DNA of 37,782 nucleotides from Halobellus rarus. Lineage in GTDB: Archaea; Halobacteriota; Halobacteria; Halobacteriales; Haloferacaceae. The position numbers and the translations under genes are program-made. Under the pieces are notes generated by a model. It did not search any database, had not been told where the DNA came from, and was given only the letters and a program-made list of their open reading frames with translations. The stretch covers positions 1 to 37,782 of the forward strand of contig NZ_JANHDI010000017.1 in the NCBI RefSeq assembly GCF_024494595.1, read 5' to 3'. Shown here piece after piece: positions 23,023 to 29,721 of this stretch. Numbering within the stretch: the stretch's first letter is position 1; every line of letters begins with the position of its first letter.

Positions 23023-23916
23023 ATGCCCGGAATGGACGACGAAACCGCGGATCTGATCCTGTCGATCCGAGAGGATGCTCGACGGTCGGCGCTCCTGTCT
23101 CACCTCGCAGGGGGAGCGAAGGCCGTGAAAGAGGAATCCGACACCGCCGCGAACGCGGACGCCGAGGCGGTGCTCGCGGAGTTGGTGGATGGCGGGATCG
23201 TCGAGCGCGACGGCGACGCGTACTCCCTCACCGACTTCGGCGAGCGGGTCCACGAGTACGCGACGCGCGATTGGAACCCCTCGAACGAGGGGACCAAACG
23301 CGCCGCGACGTTCGAGACGCTCGCCGACTGCGAGTGGCACTGTTCGGCGTGCGAACTCCCCAGTTCCCAGCCCGCGAAGGACATCCAGATGCTCCGAAAG
23401 GAGGGCTTCGAGTTCGTCCAGAACACCGGCCAGGGCCAGGGCGATTACCGCCACTGTGAGAACTGCGAGGACACGACCTTTCACCGGAAGCTCGAGTACC
23501 CGTTCCCGACGCAGAAGTCGATCACGCGGCAGGACATGCCCGACTCGTTCAAGCGTCGCGTCCGCGGCCTCTACGACCACCGCGACGCGTTCGACGGATC
23601 TTCGCCGAGCACGACCCTGGAGGTCGACCACCGCGTGCCCGAGGTGCGCTGGGAGGAATCGGAGAGCTTCGACTACGAGTCGATGAGCGGCGAGGAGATC
23701 AGAGAGCACTTCCAGATCCTCTCGCGGAAGCACAACCTCCTGAAGAGCCGGAAGTGCGAATCCTGCGTCGAGAACGGGAAGCGGCCGCCGTTTATGGAGG
23801 TCGAATACTACTACGAGGGCGGCGAGGCGTACGAGGAGGACGTCGGTTGCGTAGGGTGTGGCTGGTACAATCCCCACGAGTGGCGGGCGTCGTTGCAGGC
23901 GGAACTGGACGGGTAG
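23023..23916 (+). CDS. HNH endonuclease with wHTH and zinc-binding pairs
   Basis: A 297-residue protein. Residues 7-80 look like a winged helix (ending DGGIVERDGDAYSLTDFGER). Zinc-binding pairs follow: CSAC (107/110) with CENC (145/148). The HNH/beta-beta-alpha-metal site comprises VDHRVPEVRW (Asp202, His203) and RKHNLLKSRKCESC (Asn238, Cys245/248). The C-terminus has GCVGCGWYNPHEWRASL (Cys276/279). Such an arrangement is seen in Type II restriction endonucleases and related HNH nucleases, so it probably cleaves DNA. The specificity is unknown. The start ATG has GGAGG seven bases upstream. A cytosine-5 methyltransferase lies 4.7 kb downstream and could be the partner. Confidence 0.8.
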   Translation: MPGMDDETADLILSIREDARRSALLSHLAGGAKAVKEESDTAANADAEAVLAELVDGGIVERDGDAYSLTDFGERVHEYATRDWNPSNEGTKRAATFETLADCEWHCSACELPSSQPAKDIQMLRKEGFEFVQNTGQGQGDYRHCENCEDTTFHRKLEYPFPTQKSITRQDMPDSFKRRVRGLYDHRDAFDGSSPSTTLEVDHRVPEVRWEESESFDYESMSGEEIREHFQILSRKHNLLKSRKCESCVENGKRPPFMEVEYYYEGGEAYEEDVGCVGCGWYNPHEWRASLQAELDG

Positions 23917-23933
23917 CTATCGAAACCGACGGC

Positions 23934-25328
23934 TCAGAGGCGCTCCGCGTCGGAAGCGACGTCGTGGCCGCCGACGATGCCGTTGGCTTCGAGGAGGTAG
24001 TAGAACGCGACGTGTGCGATGAACGCGGCGACGAGTCCGTTCAGCGCCGCGCCAACGGGGCCCGGAATCACCTGCGGTGCCGCGAGCCCCGGGACGACCT
24101 GACCGGCCGTGAGGACCGCGACGGCGGCTCCGACGACGTAGGCGAGGACGCCGGTCCATCGGACGCTCGCGAACCGGACGTCGGCCATCTTCGGGACGCG
24201 CATCCGCCAGCACAGCAGGAAGTCCGCGATGACGACGCCGCCGAGCGGCGGGACGTACTGACCGAGCGTCGACAGCCACGGGATGAGGAGGCTGTCCGCG
24301 CCGACCAGCGCGAGAACGATCCCGATCGCCCCGCCGGTCAGGATGAACGGGCGCTTGCGGTCGAACTCGAAGGCCTCGCTGCCGGCGACGCCGAAGGCGT
24401 AGGCGGCGTTGTCGTTCGTCGTCCAGATGTTGAGGATCAGCGCGAGGAGGCCGACCGCCGCGAGGCCCTGGGCCGCGAGCACTTCGTAGAGGTCGCCGGC
24501 GGGTGTGACATCGTACACGGATCCGCCGACGGCACCGGAGAGGAAGAGGAACCCGTTGCCGACGAGGAAGGCGATGAGCCCGGCCCAGAAGCCGACGCGG
24601 GTGCTACTGGCGAAGCGCGCCCAGTTGGGGGCCTGCGTCCCGCCGCTGATGAACGTCCCCACGACGATGGTGACGGCGGCGGCGAAGCCCATTCCGCCCG
24701 CGCTGGACGCGCCGAACAGCCCCGAGAGGCCGCCGACGTCCTGCACGGCGATGTAGATCGAGAGGAGGCCGACGACGACGAGTATCGGGACCGCAACGAG
24801 CGAGAGCGTCTCCATCCCCTCGTAGCCGAAGTACGCGGTCGCGAGGTGCAGGACGCCCCAGAGCAGGATGAGCGCGGCCGTGAACGTGGGGGTGTCGAGG
24901 CCGAAGAACGTCGCCGTCGGGATCGCGACCATCGGGATCGTGACGCCGAACCAGCCGACCTGCGTGCCGCCGAGAATGAGGTCTGCGAACTTCGCGCCCC
25001 AGCTGCCGAAGCTGTACCGCGCGAGGAGGACGGTCGTCAGTCCGGCTTTCGCAGCGATACCGCAGAGCGTCGCGACGTAGATCCCCAGGATCGCGTAGCC
25101 CGCGGCCATCGCCGTCAGCATCGGCCCGAATCCCATCGCCGCGCCCACCTCCGCACCGGCCCAGAGGGTGCCGGCGAAGAACACGAAGCCGAGGAGGACG
25201 GCAGAGATGCTCACGAGGCCTTTACGCTCGCCGCCGGGGACGTGGTCGAGCGGGTAGTCGGGATCGGGAAGGTCCTCGTCGCCGAACACGAACCGTCGCC
25301 ACGCGGGCGTGTCGTCTTCTGTTGCCAT
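23934..25328 (-). CDS. codB: cytosine permease, NCS1 family
   Basis: A 464-residue membrane protein with about 12 hydrophobic segments. The N-terminal PDYPLDHVPGGERKGLVSIS and the segments LLARYSFGSWGAKFADLI and GGTQVGWFGVTIPMVA match the CodB-like nucleobase:cation symporter-1 pattern. It likely imports cytosine. The codA gene encoding cytosine deaminase lies on the opposite strand 1.9 kb away, with a potassium channel gene between. The ATG at 25328 is chosen because a box TTACTATACA sits 23-32 bp upstream, giving a leaderless start. It converges with the HNH gene. Confidence 0.9.
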   Translation of the reverse strand: MATEDDTPAWRRFVFGDEDLPDPDYPLDHVPGGERKGLVSISAVLLGFVFFAGTLWAGAEVGAAMGFGPMLTAMAAGYAILGIYVATLCGIAAKAGLTTVLLARYSFGSWGAKFADLILGGTQVGWFGVTIPMVAIPTATFFGLDTPTFTAALILLWGVLHLATAYFGYEGMETLSLVAVPILVVVGLLSIYIAVQDVGGLSGLFGASSAGGMGFAAAVTIVVGTFISGGTQAPNWARFASSTRVGFWAGLIAFLVGNGFLFLSGAVGGSVYDVTPAGDLYEVLAAQGLAAVGLLALILNIWTTNDNAAYAFGVAGSEAFEFDRKRPFILTGGAIGIVLALVGADSLLIPWLSTLGQYVPPLGGVVIADFLLCWRMRVPKMADVRFASVRWTGVLAYVVGAAVAVLTAGQVVPGLAAPQVIPGPVGAALNGLVAAFIAHVAFYYLLEANGIVGGHDVASDAERL

Positions 25329-25350
25329 CGAGTTCGGCTCACCGCCCGGT

Positions 25351-25360
25351 TGTATAGTAA
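25351..25360 (-). promoter_or_regulatory. TATA box of codB
   Basis: The minus strand reads TTACTATACA, placed for a start at or just before the codB ATG at 25328. Confidence 0.6.
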
Positions 25361-25546
25361 TTGTGGATCCTGCCCACATTTGTGACGAGCGGGACCGATG
25401 CGTTCGTCTTTCGGGGCGGTTCGATTGACATCCCCGGGAGAGAGGTCGGTTCCGTTCGAATCTGTCCACGTTCGGAGACATCGGGAGGCGGATCGATCGT
25501 CCCCGCGTACCGGGGGATGATATGACCCGGGCGACACGCCTCCCGT

Positions 25547-27184
25547 ATGCAGTTGCGCTCCCGCCGAACCGCCTACTACCTGGGGTTGGTGGCGGTGACG
25601 ACAGTTCTCTTCACGGTGACCTACAACGTCGGAATGGCCGTCTGGGAGGACCGCCCCCAGCCGCTGTATCGTTCCCTCGAGGTGGTCGTCCAGAGTTTCA
25701 CCACGACCGGATACGGCGAGGACGCGGGGTGGCGGACGCTACAGATGAACGTCCTCGTGATACTGATGCAACTGGCCGGGATCGGCCTCATCCTCACCGC
25801 CGTCGACGTGTTCGCGGTGCCGTGGCTCCGCGACGCCCTCACGCCGGCGGCCCCGGAGAAACTGCCGGACCTGGACGACCACATCGTCGTCTGTGAGTAC
25901 ACGCCCCGGACGGACGCCTTCGTGACGGAACTCGAAGCACGGGGACGGGACTACGTGCTCGTCGAATCCGACACGGAGACGGCCCGCGACCTCCACGAGG
26001 CCGGTTATCGAGTCGTTCAGGGCGATCCCGAGTCCGTCGAGACGCTCGAAAACGCGGGCGTCGGGTCGGCGCGCTGCGTGGTCGTCGACGCCCCCGACGA
26101 CACGAGCGCGAGCGTCGCCCTATCGGTGCGTGACGTCCGCTCCGACGTGCGCGTGATAACGCTCGTCGAGGACGTGAACCTCGCCAGGTATCACAGCGCG
26201 GCGGGCGTCGACGAGGTGCTCTCCCCGCGGCAGCTACTGGGGCGGAGTCTGGCGGAGGAAGTTCCGACCGCAGTCGCCGCAGCGGTCGAGGAGGGCGTCG
26301 TCATCGGTGAGGGATTCGAACTCGTCGAACTGGCGGTGGCCGCGGAGAGCGACATCGCCAGCGGGACGTTCGCCGAGGCCGAGCTCCGCGAGCGATTCGG
26401 CGTGAACGTGATCGGCGCGTGGATCGGCGGCGACTTCGAGACGCCCGTTCGACCCGACGCGGAACTCGTCTCCGGCACCCGCCTCCTCGTCGCCGGGCGG
26501 TCCGAGGACGTCGAAGCGCTACGCGACGCGACGGCCGTAACCGTTCGCCCGTTTTCGGCACAGCGGATCATCATCGCGGGGTTCGGCGACTCCGGTCGGA
26601 CGGTCCACGAGACGCTCTCGGGTTCGGGCTTCCGGATGACCGTCCTCGACATCGCGGAGATGGACGGCGTCGACGTCGTCGGTGACGCGCGCGAACCGGA
26701 CGCGCTGGAGGCGGCCGGAATCAGCGACGCCGACGCGCTGGTGCTCACGGTCGCCGACGACACGACGGCCATCTTCGCGACGCTCATCGCCCGCGAACTG
26801 AACCCGGATCTCCACATCGTCGTCCGGGCCAACGAGGAGGCGGACGTCGAGAAACTGCGCCGGGCGGGCGCAGACTACGTGCAGTCGCTGGCGACGGTCA
26901 GCGGACGGATGCTGGCCTCGACGGTCTTCGAAGACCAGGAGGTACTGACGTACGACACGCAGGTGAACATCGTGCGCCTCCCGGCCGGCGGGCTGGCCGG
27001 CGGCACCCTCGCCGACGAGGAAGTGCGAACGGTGACGGACTGTACGGTCGTCGCCGCGATCAGAGACGGCGAGACGGTCACCGAACTCGATCCGACCGAG
27101 TTCGTCTTCGAGGCCGACGACGAGGTCGTCGTCGCCGGGACCGACGAGGCCATTACGCGGTTCGAGGCGGAGTTCGGCGTTTGA
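25547..27184 (+). CDS. RCK/TrkA-regulated potassium channel
   Basis: A 545-residue protein: two membrane helices (about 9-30 and 66-92) around a pore with selectivity filter TTTGYGE at 52-58, then two TrkA-N/TrkA-C (RCK) units. The second RCK has a proper dinucleotide motif GFGDSG (about 342-347, in IIIAGFGDSGRTVHETL). The first has CEYTPRTDAF in place of the glycine motif, so its nucleotide site looks degenerate. The pore filter differs from the classical TVGYGD and is close to other haloarchaeal channels as I recall them. It probably conducts K+, needed for the high internal K+ of haloarchaea. It lies between codB and codA. Confidence 0.9.
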   Translation: MQLRSRRTAYYLGLVAVTTVLFTVTYNVGMAVWEDRPQPLYRSLEVVVQSFTTTGYGEDAGWRTLQMNVLVILMQLAGIGLILTAVDVFAVPWLRDALTPAAPEKLPDLDDHIVVCEYTPRTDAFVTELEARGRDYVLVESDTETARDLHEAGYRVVQGDPESVETLENAGVGSARCVVVDAPDDTSASVALSVRDVRSDVRVITLVEDVNLARYHSAAGVDEVLSPRQLLGRSLAEEVPTAVAAAVEEGVVIGEGFELVELAVAAESDIASGTFAEAELRERFGVNVIGAWIGGDFETPVRPDAELVSGTRLLVAGRSEDVEALRDATAVTVRPFSAQRIIIAGFGDSGRTVHETLSGSGFRMTVLDIAEMDGVDVVGDAREPDALEAAGISDADALVLTVADDTTAIFATLIARELNPDLHIVVRANEEADVEKLRRAGADYVQSLATVSGRMLASTVFEDQEVLTYDTQVNIVRLPAGGLAGGTLADEEVRTVTDCTVVAAIRDGETVTELDPTEFVFEADDEVVVAGTDEAITRFEAEFGV

Positions 27185-27237
27185 GAGCGATTCCGATTAC
27201 CCAAAGCTGAAGCGTCGCTGCGGCCTCTGCTCCCGAT

Positions 27238-28521
27238 ATGTCCGAATACATCGTCACGAACGGCCGGACGGTGGCCGGCGAGGCCGTCGACATCGAGGTC
27301 CGTGCGGGAGCGATCGACCGCCTGGTCCCCGCAGGCGAGGGCGATTCAGACGCGTTCGACGCCGACCGCCGGTACGACGCCGACGGTCGGCTGGTGACGC
27401 CGCCGCTCATCGAACCGCACGTCCACCTCGACGCGACGGGGACCGCGGGCGACCCGTCCTGGAACGACAGCGGCACGCTCGCCGAAGGCATCGAGGTCTG
27501 GGCGGAGTACAAGGAGGACATCACCGTCGAGGACGTCCTCGAACGGGCGACGCAGACGGTGGAGTGGTACGCGTCCCACGGCGTGACGCGCATCCGGACG
27601 CACGCCGACACGACCGAGCCGTCGCTGACGACCGTCGAGGCGCTGGTGGAGCTGAAATCGCGGGTGTCCGACCTCGTCGACCTGCAGGTCGTCGCGTTCC
27701 CCCAGGACGGCATCCTCACCGACGAGTCCCACGAGGACCTGCTCGAAGCGGCCGTCGAGATGGGCGTCGACCTGGTGGGCGGGATCCCGCACAACGAGTA
27801 CACCCGCGAGGACGGGGTCAAGAGCGTCGAGATCGCGTGCGACCTGGCGGAGGAGCACGACCTGCCGCTGGACCTCCACATCGACGAGACCGACGATCCG
27901 AACTCGCGGTTCACGGAGGTGCTCGCCAGCGAGGCGATAAAGCGGGACATCGGCGACCGCGTCACCGCGAGTCACACGACAGCGACGCACTCGTACAACA
28001 ACGCCTACGCGGACAAACTGATCTCGATGCTCGCAGACAGCGGCGCCTCAGTGGTGACGAATCCGCCCGACAACTCCGTCCTGCAGGGCGCGTACGACGA
28101 CTACCCGCGGCGGCGCGGTCACACCCGAATCGACGAACTGCGCGAGGCCGGCGTGACGGTCGGCATCGGCCACGACTCCGTGCTCGATCCGTGGTACCAC
28201 TACGGCGTCGCCGACCCGCTGGACGCGGCGTTCGTCCTCGCCCACTACGCCCACATGGCGGGCCGCGCCGACGTCGAGGTGCTCTGGGAGATGCTGACCG
28301 ACGCCAACGCCGAGGTGTTCGGCCTGGAGGAGTACGGCCTCAGCGAGGGTAACGAGGGCTCGCTCGTCGTCTACGACAGCCCCGACGGGTTCAACGCCCT
28401 GCGGACGCAGGCACCGCGGACGCTGGTGCTCCGGAACGGCGAGCCGATCGCGCGGACGGAACCGAGCGCGACGACGGTACACAGAGCGGACGGGCCGACG
28501 TCGGTCGACTACAAGCGGTAG
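27238..28521 (+). CDS. codA: cytosine deaminase
   Basis: Hydrolyses cytosine to uracil and ammonia for pyrimidine salvage. The 427-residue amidohydrolase keeps the metal-site residues at positions matching E. coli CodA as I recall it: His61/His63 (EPHVHLDA), His214 and Glu217 (LHIDETDD), His246 (SHTTATHSYNN) and Asp313 (GIGHDSVLDPWY). The C-terminus ends DYKR, as in E. coli. Position 314 is serine instead of the usual aspartate. The close correspondence to a bacterial protein suggests horizontal acquisition, together with codB. The ATG at 27238 follows the channel gene by 53 bp on the same strand. Confidence 0.95.
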   Translation: MSEYIVTNGRTVAGEAVDIEVRAGAIDRLVPAGEGDSDAFDADRRYDADGRLVTPPLIEPHVHLDATGTAGDPSWNDSGTLAEGIEVWAEYKEDITVEDVLERATQTVEWYASHGVTRIRTHADTTEPSLTTVEALVELKSRVSDLVDLQVVAFPQDGILTDESHEDLLEAAVEMGVDLVGGIPHNEYTREDGVKSVEIACDLAEEHDLPLDLHIDETDDPNSRFTEVLASEAIKRDIGDRVTASHTTATHSYNNAYADKLISMLADSGASVVTNPPDNSVLQGAYDDYPRRRGHTRIDELREAGVTVGIGHDSVLDPWYHYGVADPLDAAFVLAHYAHMAGRADVEVLWEMLTDANAEVFGLEEYGLSEGNEGSLVVYDSPDGFNALRTQAPRTLVLRNGEPIARTEPSATTVHRADGPTSVDYKR

Positions 28522-28610
28522 TTCCGCCGACTTCGGGGCCATCTCAGCGGATTTCGATTCGCACCCCGAGGCACAGGGCTCCGATTCGCCGGCCGAGGTA
28601 TCCCCGCGGT

Positions 28611-28620
28611 GTTTAAATAC
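28611..28620 (+). promoter_or_regulatory. TATA box of the C5 methyltransferase
   Basis: GTTTAAATAC is a strong TATA box 31-40 bp upstream of the ATG at 28651. This argues against the in-frame GTG at 28609, which would lie inside the promoter. Confidence 0.75.
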
Positions 28621-28650
28621 GATCGCGAACGAGATCCGGATAGATTCCGA

Positions 28651-29721
28651 ATGCCGGGTTCCGACTTCGATCGCGCCTCGATCAAGGTGCTCGATCTGTT
28701 CTGCGGTGGCGGCGGCCTCTCGGAGGGCTTCCTGCAGGCCGGTTACGACGTCGTCGCCGGGGTCGACGTCAACGAGGACTTCTTGGCGACGTACGAGCAC
28801 AACCACGAGGACGCGCTCGCGATCCAGGCGGACCTCTCGACGGTCGGTCCGGAGGAGTTCTTCGAGGAATATCCAGTCGATCCGGACGAAATCGACGTCG
28901 TGATCGGCGGCCCGCCCTGCAAGGGTTTCAGCATCGCGGGGCATCGCGACCCCGACGACGAGCGCAACTACCTCGTCGGGAACTTCATCGACTTCGTGGA
29001 GTACGTCCGACCCGCGGCGTTCGTGATGGAGAACGTCCCGGGGATCAAGTCGATGGAGGGCGGCGACACCCTCCGGGCGATCCTGGAGGGGTTCGAGCGC
29101 GCGGGCTACGAGAAGCCGGCGTACGAGACGCTGAACGCCGCCGACTACGGCGTCCCGCAGAACCGCCGGCGCGTGATCTTCCAGGGGCGACGCGACGGAT
29201 CGATTCCGACGTATCCCGAGCGGACGCACGGCCCCTCGAAGCAGGCGACGCTCACGGGAAAACAGCTAGAGCCGTACGTGACCGTCGAGGACGCGCTCTT
29301 AGAGCGCGGCAGCGAAGACTGCAGCGGCGAAGAGCGCGCTATCGACGACCTGCCGAACCACGAGAAGACGAACCACTCCGCGGAGATGGTCGAGCGGATC
29401 TCCGAAGTCGACCCCGGCGAGAGCCTCTATGAGAGCTACGGCGACAGCTGGCGGCGACTCCCCCGCGACGAACCGTCGATCACGATCAAGGAGAACCACA
29501 ACGCGCCGTTCGTCCACCCCGTCGAGGACCGCGTCGGGACCGTCCGCGAGTGCGCGATCCTGCAGTCGTTCCCCGACGACTACGTGTTTCAGGGCCCCAA
29601 GAGCACGCAGCTGAAAGTCGTCGGCAACGCCGTCCCGCCGGGGCTCTCGAAGGCGATCGCCGAAACGCTGGCCGAAGATCTGGCGGAGATGGAGCGGAGC
29701 GTCGTCGCCGACGCGGAGTGA
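28651..29721 (+). CDS. DNA (cytosine-5) methyltransferase
   Basis: A 356-residue C5-methyltransferase. Motif I is DLFCGGGG (15-22), motif IV GPPCKGFS with the catalytic Cys90, motif VI MENVPG (ENV at 127-129), and motif VIII QNRRR (170-174). The target recognition region follows, and motifs IX/X end with VGNAVPPGLSKAIAETLAE. It transfers methyl from SAM to cytosine in a specific DNA sequence that cannot be read here. Motif IV has Lys where Gln is more common (PPCQGFS). No nuclease is adjacent; the HNH gene 4.7 kb upstream is a candidate partner, otherwise it is an orphan methylase. Confidence 0.95.
   Translation: MPGSDFDRASIKVLDLFCGGGGLSEGFLQAGYDVVAGVDVNEDFLATYEHNHEDALAIQADLSTVGPEEFFEEYPVDPDEIDVVIGGPPCKGFSIAGHRDPDDERNYLVGNFIDFVEYVRPAAFVMENVPGIKSMEGGDTLRAILEGFERAGYEKPAYETLNAADYGVPQNRRRVIFQGRRDGSIPTYPERTHGPSKQATLTGKQLEPYVTVEDALLERGSEDCSGEERAIDDLPNHEKTNHSAEMVERISEVDPGESLYESYGDSWRRLPRDEPSITIKENHNAPFVHPVEDRVGTVRECAILQSFPDDYVFQGPKSTQLKVVGNAVPPGLSKAIAETLAEDLAEMERSVVADAE

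Follow-up and report, generated by a model that had tools for sequence, protein, structure and literature searches.

Five genes were found between positions 23032 and 29721 of the window, the 37,782-nt stretch of the Halobellus rarus genome that was analyzed. All five were at the positions that a preliminary description had given, and profile searches and comparison with the sequences of solved structures confirmed their names. The features are as follows.

23032–23916, + strand: HNH nuclease of the ICEA (IceA1/NlaIII) family (Pfam ICEA, PADLOC REase_II, 15-row alignment)
23934–25481, − strand: codB, cytosine permease, part of the insert (NCBIfam cytosine permease, above cut-off)
25547–27184, + strand: two-RCK K+ channel (pore motif TTTGYGE, read from the sequence; two TrkA-N/TrkA-C units)
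27238–28521, + strand: codA, cytosine deaminase family, part of the insert (profile and solved-structure sequence matches)
28177–28179, + strand: CodA codon for Ser314, which aligns with Asp314 of the E. coli protein (alignment)
28612–28619, + strand: TATA-like box of the methylase gene, TTTAAATA (conserved upstream of the methylase in relatives)
28651–29721, + strand: DNA cytosine-5 methyltransferase, from its likely true start; 28609 in the ORF listing (Pfam, motifs, start conservation)

The distance from the nuclease stop to the listed methylase start was 4.69 kb, in agreement with the 4.7 kb estimated before.

The nuclease matched Pfam ICEA at 33.3 bits (cut-off 24) over residues 187–287 only, and PADLOC REase_II (1.2e-26) over residues 92–292. 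Its N-terminus (approximately residues 1–79) was a winged helix. The Cys pairs CSAC (residue 104), CENC (142), CESC (242) and CVGC (273) were accompanied by VDHR (198), HNLLKSRKC (234) and, close to the C-terminal end, GCVGCGWYNP. The HNH catalytic residues were conserved: all 15 aligned nucleases had the same EVDHR and N235/K238 region. These motifs and the profile searches bore out the earlier reading of an HNH nuclease with zinc-binding pairs and with GCVGCGWYNP near its C-terminus. None of the solved structures matched the nuclease by sequence, and the structure predicted from the 15-row alignment (mean pLDDT 54.9) was good over the winged helix only.

The methylase matched Pfam DNA_methylase (3.6e-62), and its motifs I, IV (PPC), VI (ENV), VIII and X were intact (DLFCGGGG, PPCKGFS, ENVPG, QNRRR and GNAVPP). 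It shared fold family and motifs with the M.HaeIII-type C5 methyltransferases, and its best solved-structure match was 1dct (3.6e-33). On the other hand, GGCC, the M.HaeIII-type target, was rejected here, where CATG is the probable target: the observed/expected ratio of GGCC was 0.85–0.89, compared with 0.87 in the controls. The listed start of the methylase, a GTG at 28609, runs into the conserved TATA-like box, which made the ATG at 28651 the more likely true start. The box was kept just 5' of the methylase both in loci in which nuclease and methylase are close together and in those with cod genes between them. This suggested that the methylase need not depend on transcription of codA.

Of 17 genomes of the genus Halobellus, 12 carried the nuclease, and the methylase was found in exactly these 12. 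Named relatives of the nuclease, 78–87% identical, were all from Halobellus (H. rufus, H. captivus, H. clavatus, H. inordinatus, sp. Atlit-31R and H. salinus); these are partly the same genomes and were not added to the counts, which refer to the 17-genome set only. In four genomes (G216, G254, G294 and G300) the two genes were adjacent, 381–487 bp apart. In seven (the H. rarus genome, G115, G293, G295, G296, G297 and G298) codA lay between them, with codB also in the interval. In H. salinus (G138), the nuclease was followed by a fragment of codB and by codA, and the methylase was approximately 76 kb away on the opposite strand. Within the genus, the comparison of gene order in related genomes, which the preliminary description had proposed as a check, came out in favor of a pair.

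In the 293 genomes of the order, full-length relatives of the nuclease were found in eight, all of one family (this count excludes two further partial matches with E close to 8e-4). Close relatives of the methylase (at least 70% identity) were also found in eight, and six more at 43–51%. Seven genomes had both genes. When 392 genomes of the phylum were searched by profile, four had the nuclease, and all four were from the same family as in the order search. Outside Halobellus, the nuclease was adjacent to the methylase in G234, and the two were on different contigs in G153. G222 had the nuclease and gave no C5-methylase match at E 1e-10, and G076 had the methylase without such a nuclease. No methylase was seen by eye among the predicted ORFs beside the nucleases of G153 and G222. 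An ORF resembling an Mrr-type restriction protein (by eye) lay at L074:4621–5646, a few kb from the G076 methylase. A methylase widespread without the nuclease, together with a nuclease that pairs with a different methylase elsewhere, had been named earlier as evidence that would speak against a pair. This was borne out in part outside the genus, by G222 and G076.

The four compact loci contained a protein of 72–77 aa between the nuclease and the methylase, 49–61% identical between species; it matched winged-helix families only weakly, and in no case above cut-off. No significant match to this gene was found in the cod-bearing loci compared, which suggested that the cod genes occupy its slot. 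In the Halobellus loci examined, a serB-like HAD gene and serA lay 3' of the methylase, and mscS or EamA lay upstream in some. The cod-bearing loci did not form one clade: the trait required 2, 3 and 2 changes on the nuclease, methylase and HAD trees, respectively, so that gain, loss and exchange between species would look alike on these trees. Repeated loss was less likely, since the compact loci have the winged-helix gene in common. It would be economical to suppose that codBA replaced this gene once and was then exchanged between species, although loss may have occurred instead. The K+ channel was found at this place in the H. rarus genome only; its best relatives in the genus were 66% identical and located elsewhere. 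The relatives of codB aligned only from approximately residue 43.

The title of Xu 2002, as cited by PMC3261200 and PMC2816704, describes IceA1 as recognizing CATG; the text of PMC3261200 itself prints CTAG. Because of the CATG description, palindromes were tested in the carrier genomes against a maximal-order Markov expectation. No other 4-mer was as strongly depleted in carriers, compared with controls, as CATG. Its observed/expected ratio was 0.03–0.47 in 12 of 12 samples from 10 carrier Halobellus genomes (counts in the largest samples, 93/525 in G254 and 177/591 in G296). It was 0.60–1.20 in 24 haloarchaeal control loci, which came from 22 genomes without either gene by the order-wide searches. 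The relatives in other genera were also low, at 0.03 (G234), 0.47 (G153), 0.50 (G222) and 0.25 in G076, which has the methylase alone. G303 and G060, which are grouped in the same genus and lack both genes, gave 0.78 and 0.79; with a GC content of 48% they were unsuitable as the main control, and the comparison was redone with the 24 loci. The genus grouping was very mixed in this respect, the sampled Halobellus carriers having 66–68% GC.

Whole-genome counts of GCATGC in 60 genomes were 8–51 in the 12 carriers and 62–581 in the 48 others, which comprised 40 screened as lacking both genes, G076 with its methylase, and seven (G615–G621) that were not screened. The density was at most 16.5 per Mb in carriers and at least 19.7 per Mb in all others. 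Ratios to the reversed control pattern overlapped slightly (71/2501 in G251 versus 48/1588 and 51/1476 in the carriers G293 and G138). The carriers of the genus are one clade and therefore not 12 independent observations, and the whole-genome contrast amounts to little more than a single event. The relatives in two other genera added a few independent CATG observations.

In alignments of carrier sequences, substitutions at CATG were examined where a C in the third codon position precedes ATG, with the direction of change unpolarized. C-to-T stood at 0.347 for CATG (170 comparisons, 43 sites; site bootstrap 0.241–0.486), compared with 0.029 for CAAG and 0.034 for CACG, and CATG ranked first of 52 contexts. 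C-to-G was also raised at CATG (0.435 versus approximately 0.21), which indicated that part of the CATG loss is not deamination. In non-carrier haloarchaea, CATG ranked 13th of 53 contexts, with a C-to-T of 0.092 (1018 comparisons at 234 sites); its C-to-G was 0.217. The G303/G060 pair gave a C-to-T of 0.333 from only 15 comparisons and was uninformative, because C-to-T was common there across all contexts. As a further sign, TATG was raised in carriers (observed/expected 1.03–1.68 versus 0.33–0.95 in the 24 controls). Deamination of 5-methylcytosine would be expected to leave an excess of C-to-T over and above the general loss of CATG. We took this excess to support 5-methylcytosine, short of proof, since CTAG behaved alike on few comparisons (29) and the direction was unpolarized.

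From these sequence comparisons, the nuclease and the methylase probably constitute one Type II restriction-modification system with CATG as its target, split by the cod insert. The presence of both genes in one and the same set of 12 among 17 genomes, the four compact loci and the CATG signal all supported the pair that the preliminary description had suggested. What is new here is that the pair probably acts on CATG. The methylase would add a 5-methyl group to the cytosine of CATG, and the HNH nuclease, with its added N-terminal winged helix, would cut unmodified CATG of incoming DNA. The order in the compact loci is nuclease, winged-helix-like protein (perhaps a regulator) and methylase. 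In the lineage of H. rarus, codB-codA would have taken the winged-helix slot, leaving the flanking genes and the methylase promoter, and the K+ channel gene would have landed later between codB and codA. The cod genes are probably bystanders; they would recycle free cytosine, and perhaps also 5-methylcytosine.

As in the IceA1 (Helicobacter pylori) and NlaIII systems, the nuclease here is of the Pfam ICEA family, with a CATG signal in the carrier genomes and with the genes neighboring in the compact loci. The extra N-terminal winged helix, the archaeal host and the codB-codA genes splitting the pair are unlike those systems. The methylase of the NlaIII system is an adenine methylase, which makes m6A, whereas the partner here is a C5-cytosine methylase. 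The ICEA-family nuclease, the CATG depletion and the C-to-T excess together suggested that an NlaIII-type nuclease is paired with a 5mC methylase. A literature search for the adenine-methylase partner of NlaIII found nothing, and one for CATG or m5CATG in haloarchaea found only work on motif avoidance by viruses.

It is possible, but in our estimate unlikely, that the nuclease and the methylase are separate enzymes or have different targets. The methylase would then be a stand-alone epigenetic enzyme, and CATG would be scarce for some other reason, for example because of a different system aimed at CATG. The nuclease-only G222 and methylase-only G076, the separate contigs of G153 and the 76 kb in G138 all point this way, as does the depletion of an unrelated word, CTCGAG, in Halobellus (0.12–0.29 in the G254 and G296 stretches). 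CTCGAG was also at 0.30 in two non-carrier loci of the same family (L081 and L088) and was not depleted in the other controls. It was rejected as the target. In other genera with one or both genes CTCGAG was normal (1.04), and CATG was 0.03–0.50. This last contrast, the sharing of both genes by the same 12 genomes and a nuclease family known for CATG argued against separate enzymes.

A functional tie between the pair and the cod genes, also raised in the preliminary description, was not supported. Under such a tie, CodA would convert to thymine the 5-methylcytosine released when methylated DNA is degraded, with CodB retrieving such bases. E. coli CodA becomes active on 5-methylcytosine once Asp314 is changed to alanine, and the 5-methylcytosine deaminase of Klebsiella pneumoniae has a serine at 314, as described in PMC6186785. 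CodA of the locus likewise has Ser314 in place of Asp314. Over residues 19–408 it aligned (E 2.5e-102) with 4r7w, one of the structures of the K. pneumoniae enzyme Kpn00632 (PDB 4r7w, 4r85 and 4r88). On the other hand, it is haloarchaeal and scored slightly closer to E. coli CodA, and 5-methylcytosine is only a candidate substrate. In favor of the tie, the arrangement was kept in seven genomes of the genus. Against the tie, all close haloarchaeal CodAs with a readable motif had GHDS, linked to the pair or not (the motif was not caught in L065, and the pattern matched another stretch in G302 and G303). These included a second CodA of H. rarus (C25:77150–78427, locus L078), 60% identical and also with Ser314. 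This copy lay in a stretch of lower GC (0.57), with no codB within the 15 kb examined. The codB-codA pair was common in haloarchaea and was seen away from any such methylase, and four carrier genomes had no CodA match at E 1e-40 in the genus search. Only 12 CATG sites occur in the window, so little 5-methylcytosine would be made. Because Ser314 is family-wide and four carriers have no CodA match, we rejected the tie as the main reading and regard it as very improbable. It is just as doubtful that an NlaIII-type nuclease swapped its adenine methylase for a cytosine-5 methylase, with CodA recycling the methylated base and a single locus thus carrying modification, restriction and methyl-base salvage together. 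Among the matches listed, no literature joined 5-methylcytosine, cytosine deaminase, restriction-modification and codA in such a link.

The composite acquired island proposed earlier stood only as an old insertion. The eight locus-linked CodAs formed a single clade (support 98/97) with one apparent origin; the unlinked copies of G199 and G302 lay beside it in the tree. This clade, kept across eight species, indicated that the insertion is old and in a fixed chromosomal place; the K+ channel alone was private to H. rarus. A recent acquisition of the entire block as a mobile island is highly unlikely. The patchy spread (the nuclease in eight of 293 genomes) would fit it, but the CodA clade, the serB-like HAD and serA genes 3' of the methylase in the relatives examined, the GC of the block (0.65–0.70, like the remainder of the window), the lack of a tRNA gene and of matches in the plasmids and viral contigs searched all disfavored it.

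If the reading of one CATG system is right, one nuclease family would be protected by chemically different methylations, 5mC here and m6A for NlaIII, and restriction systems would be shown to be reassembled from parts. A restriction pair that keeps a multi-gene insert across several species would also mean that adjacency is not required. The haloarchaeal CodA family as a whole would be a set of candidate 5-methylcytosine deaminases. The motifs of 5mC in haloarchaea are described as poorly mapped in PMC10609329, and the sharp prediction of the present reading is 5mC at CATG in Halobellus.
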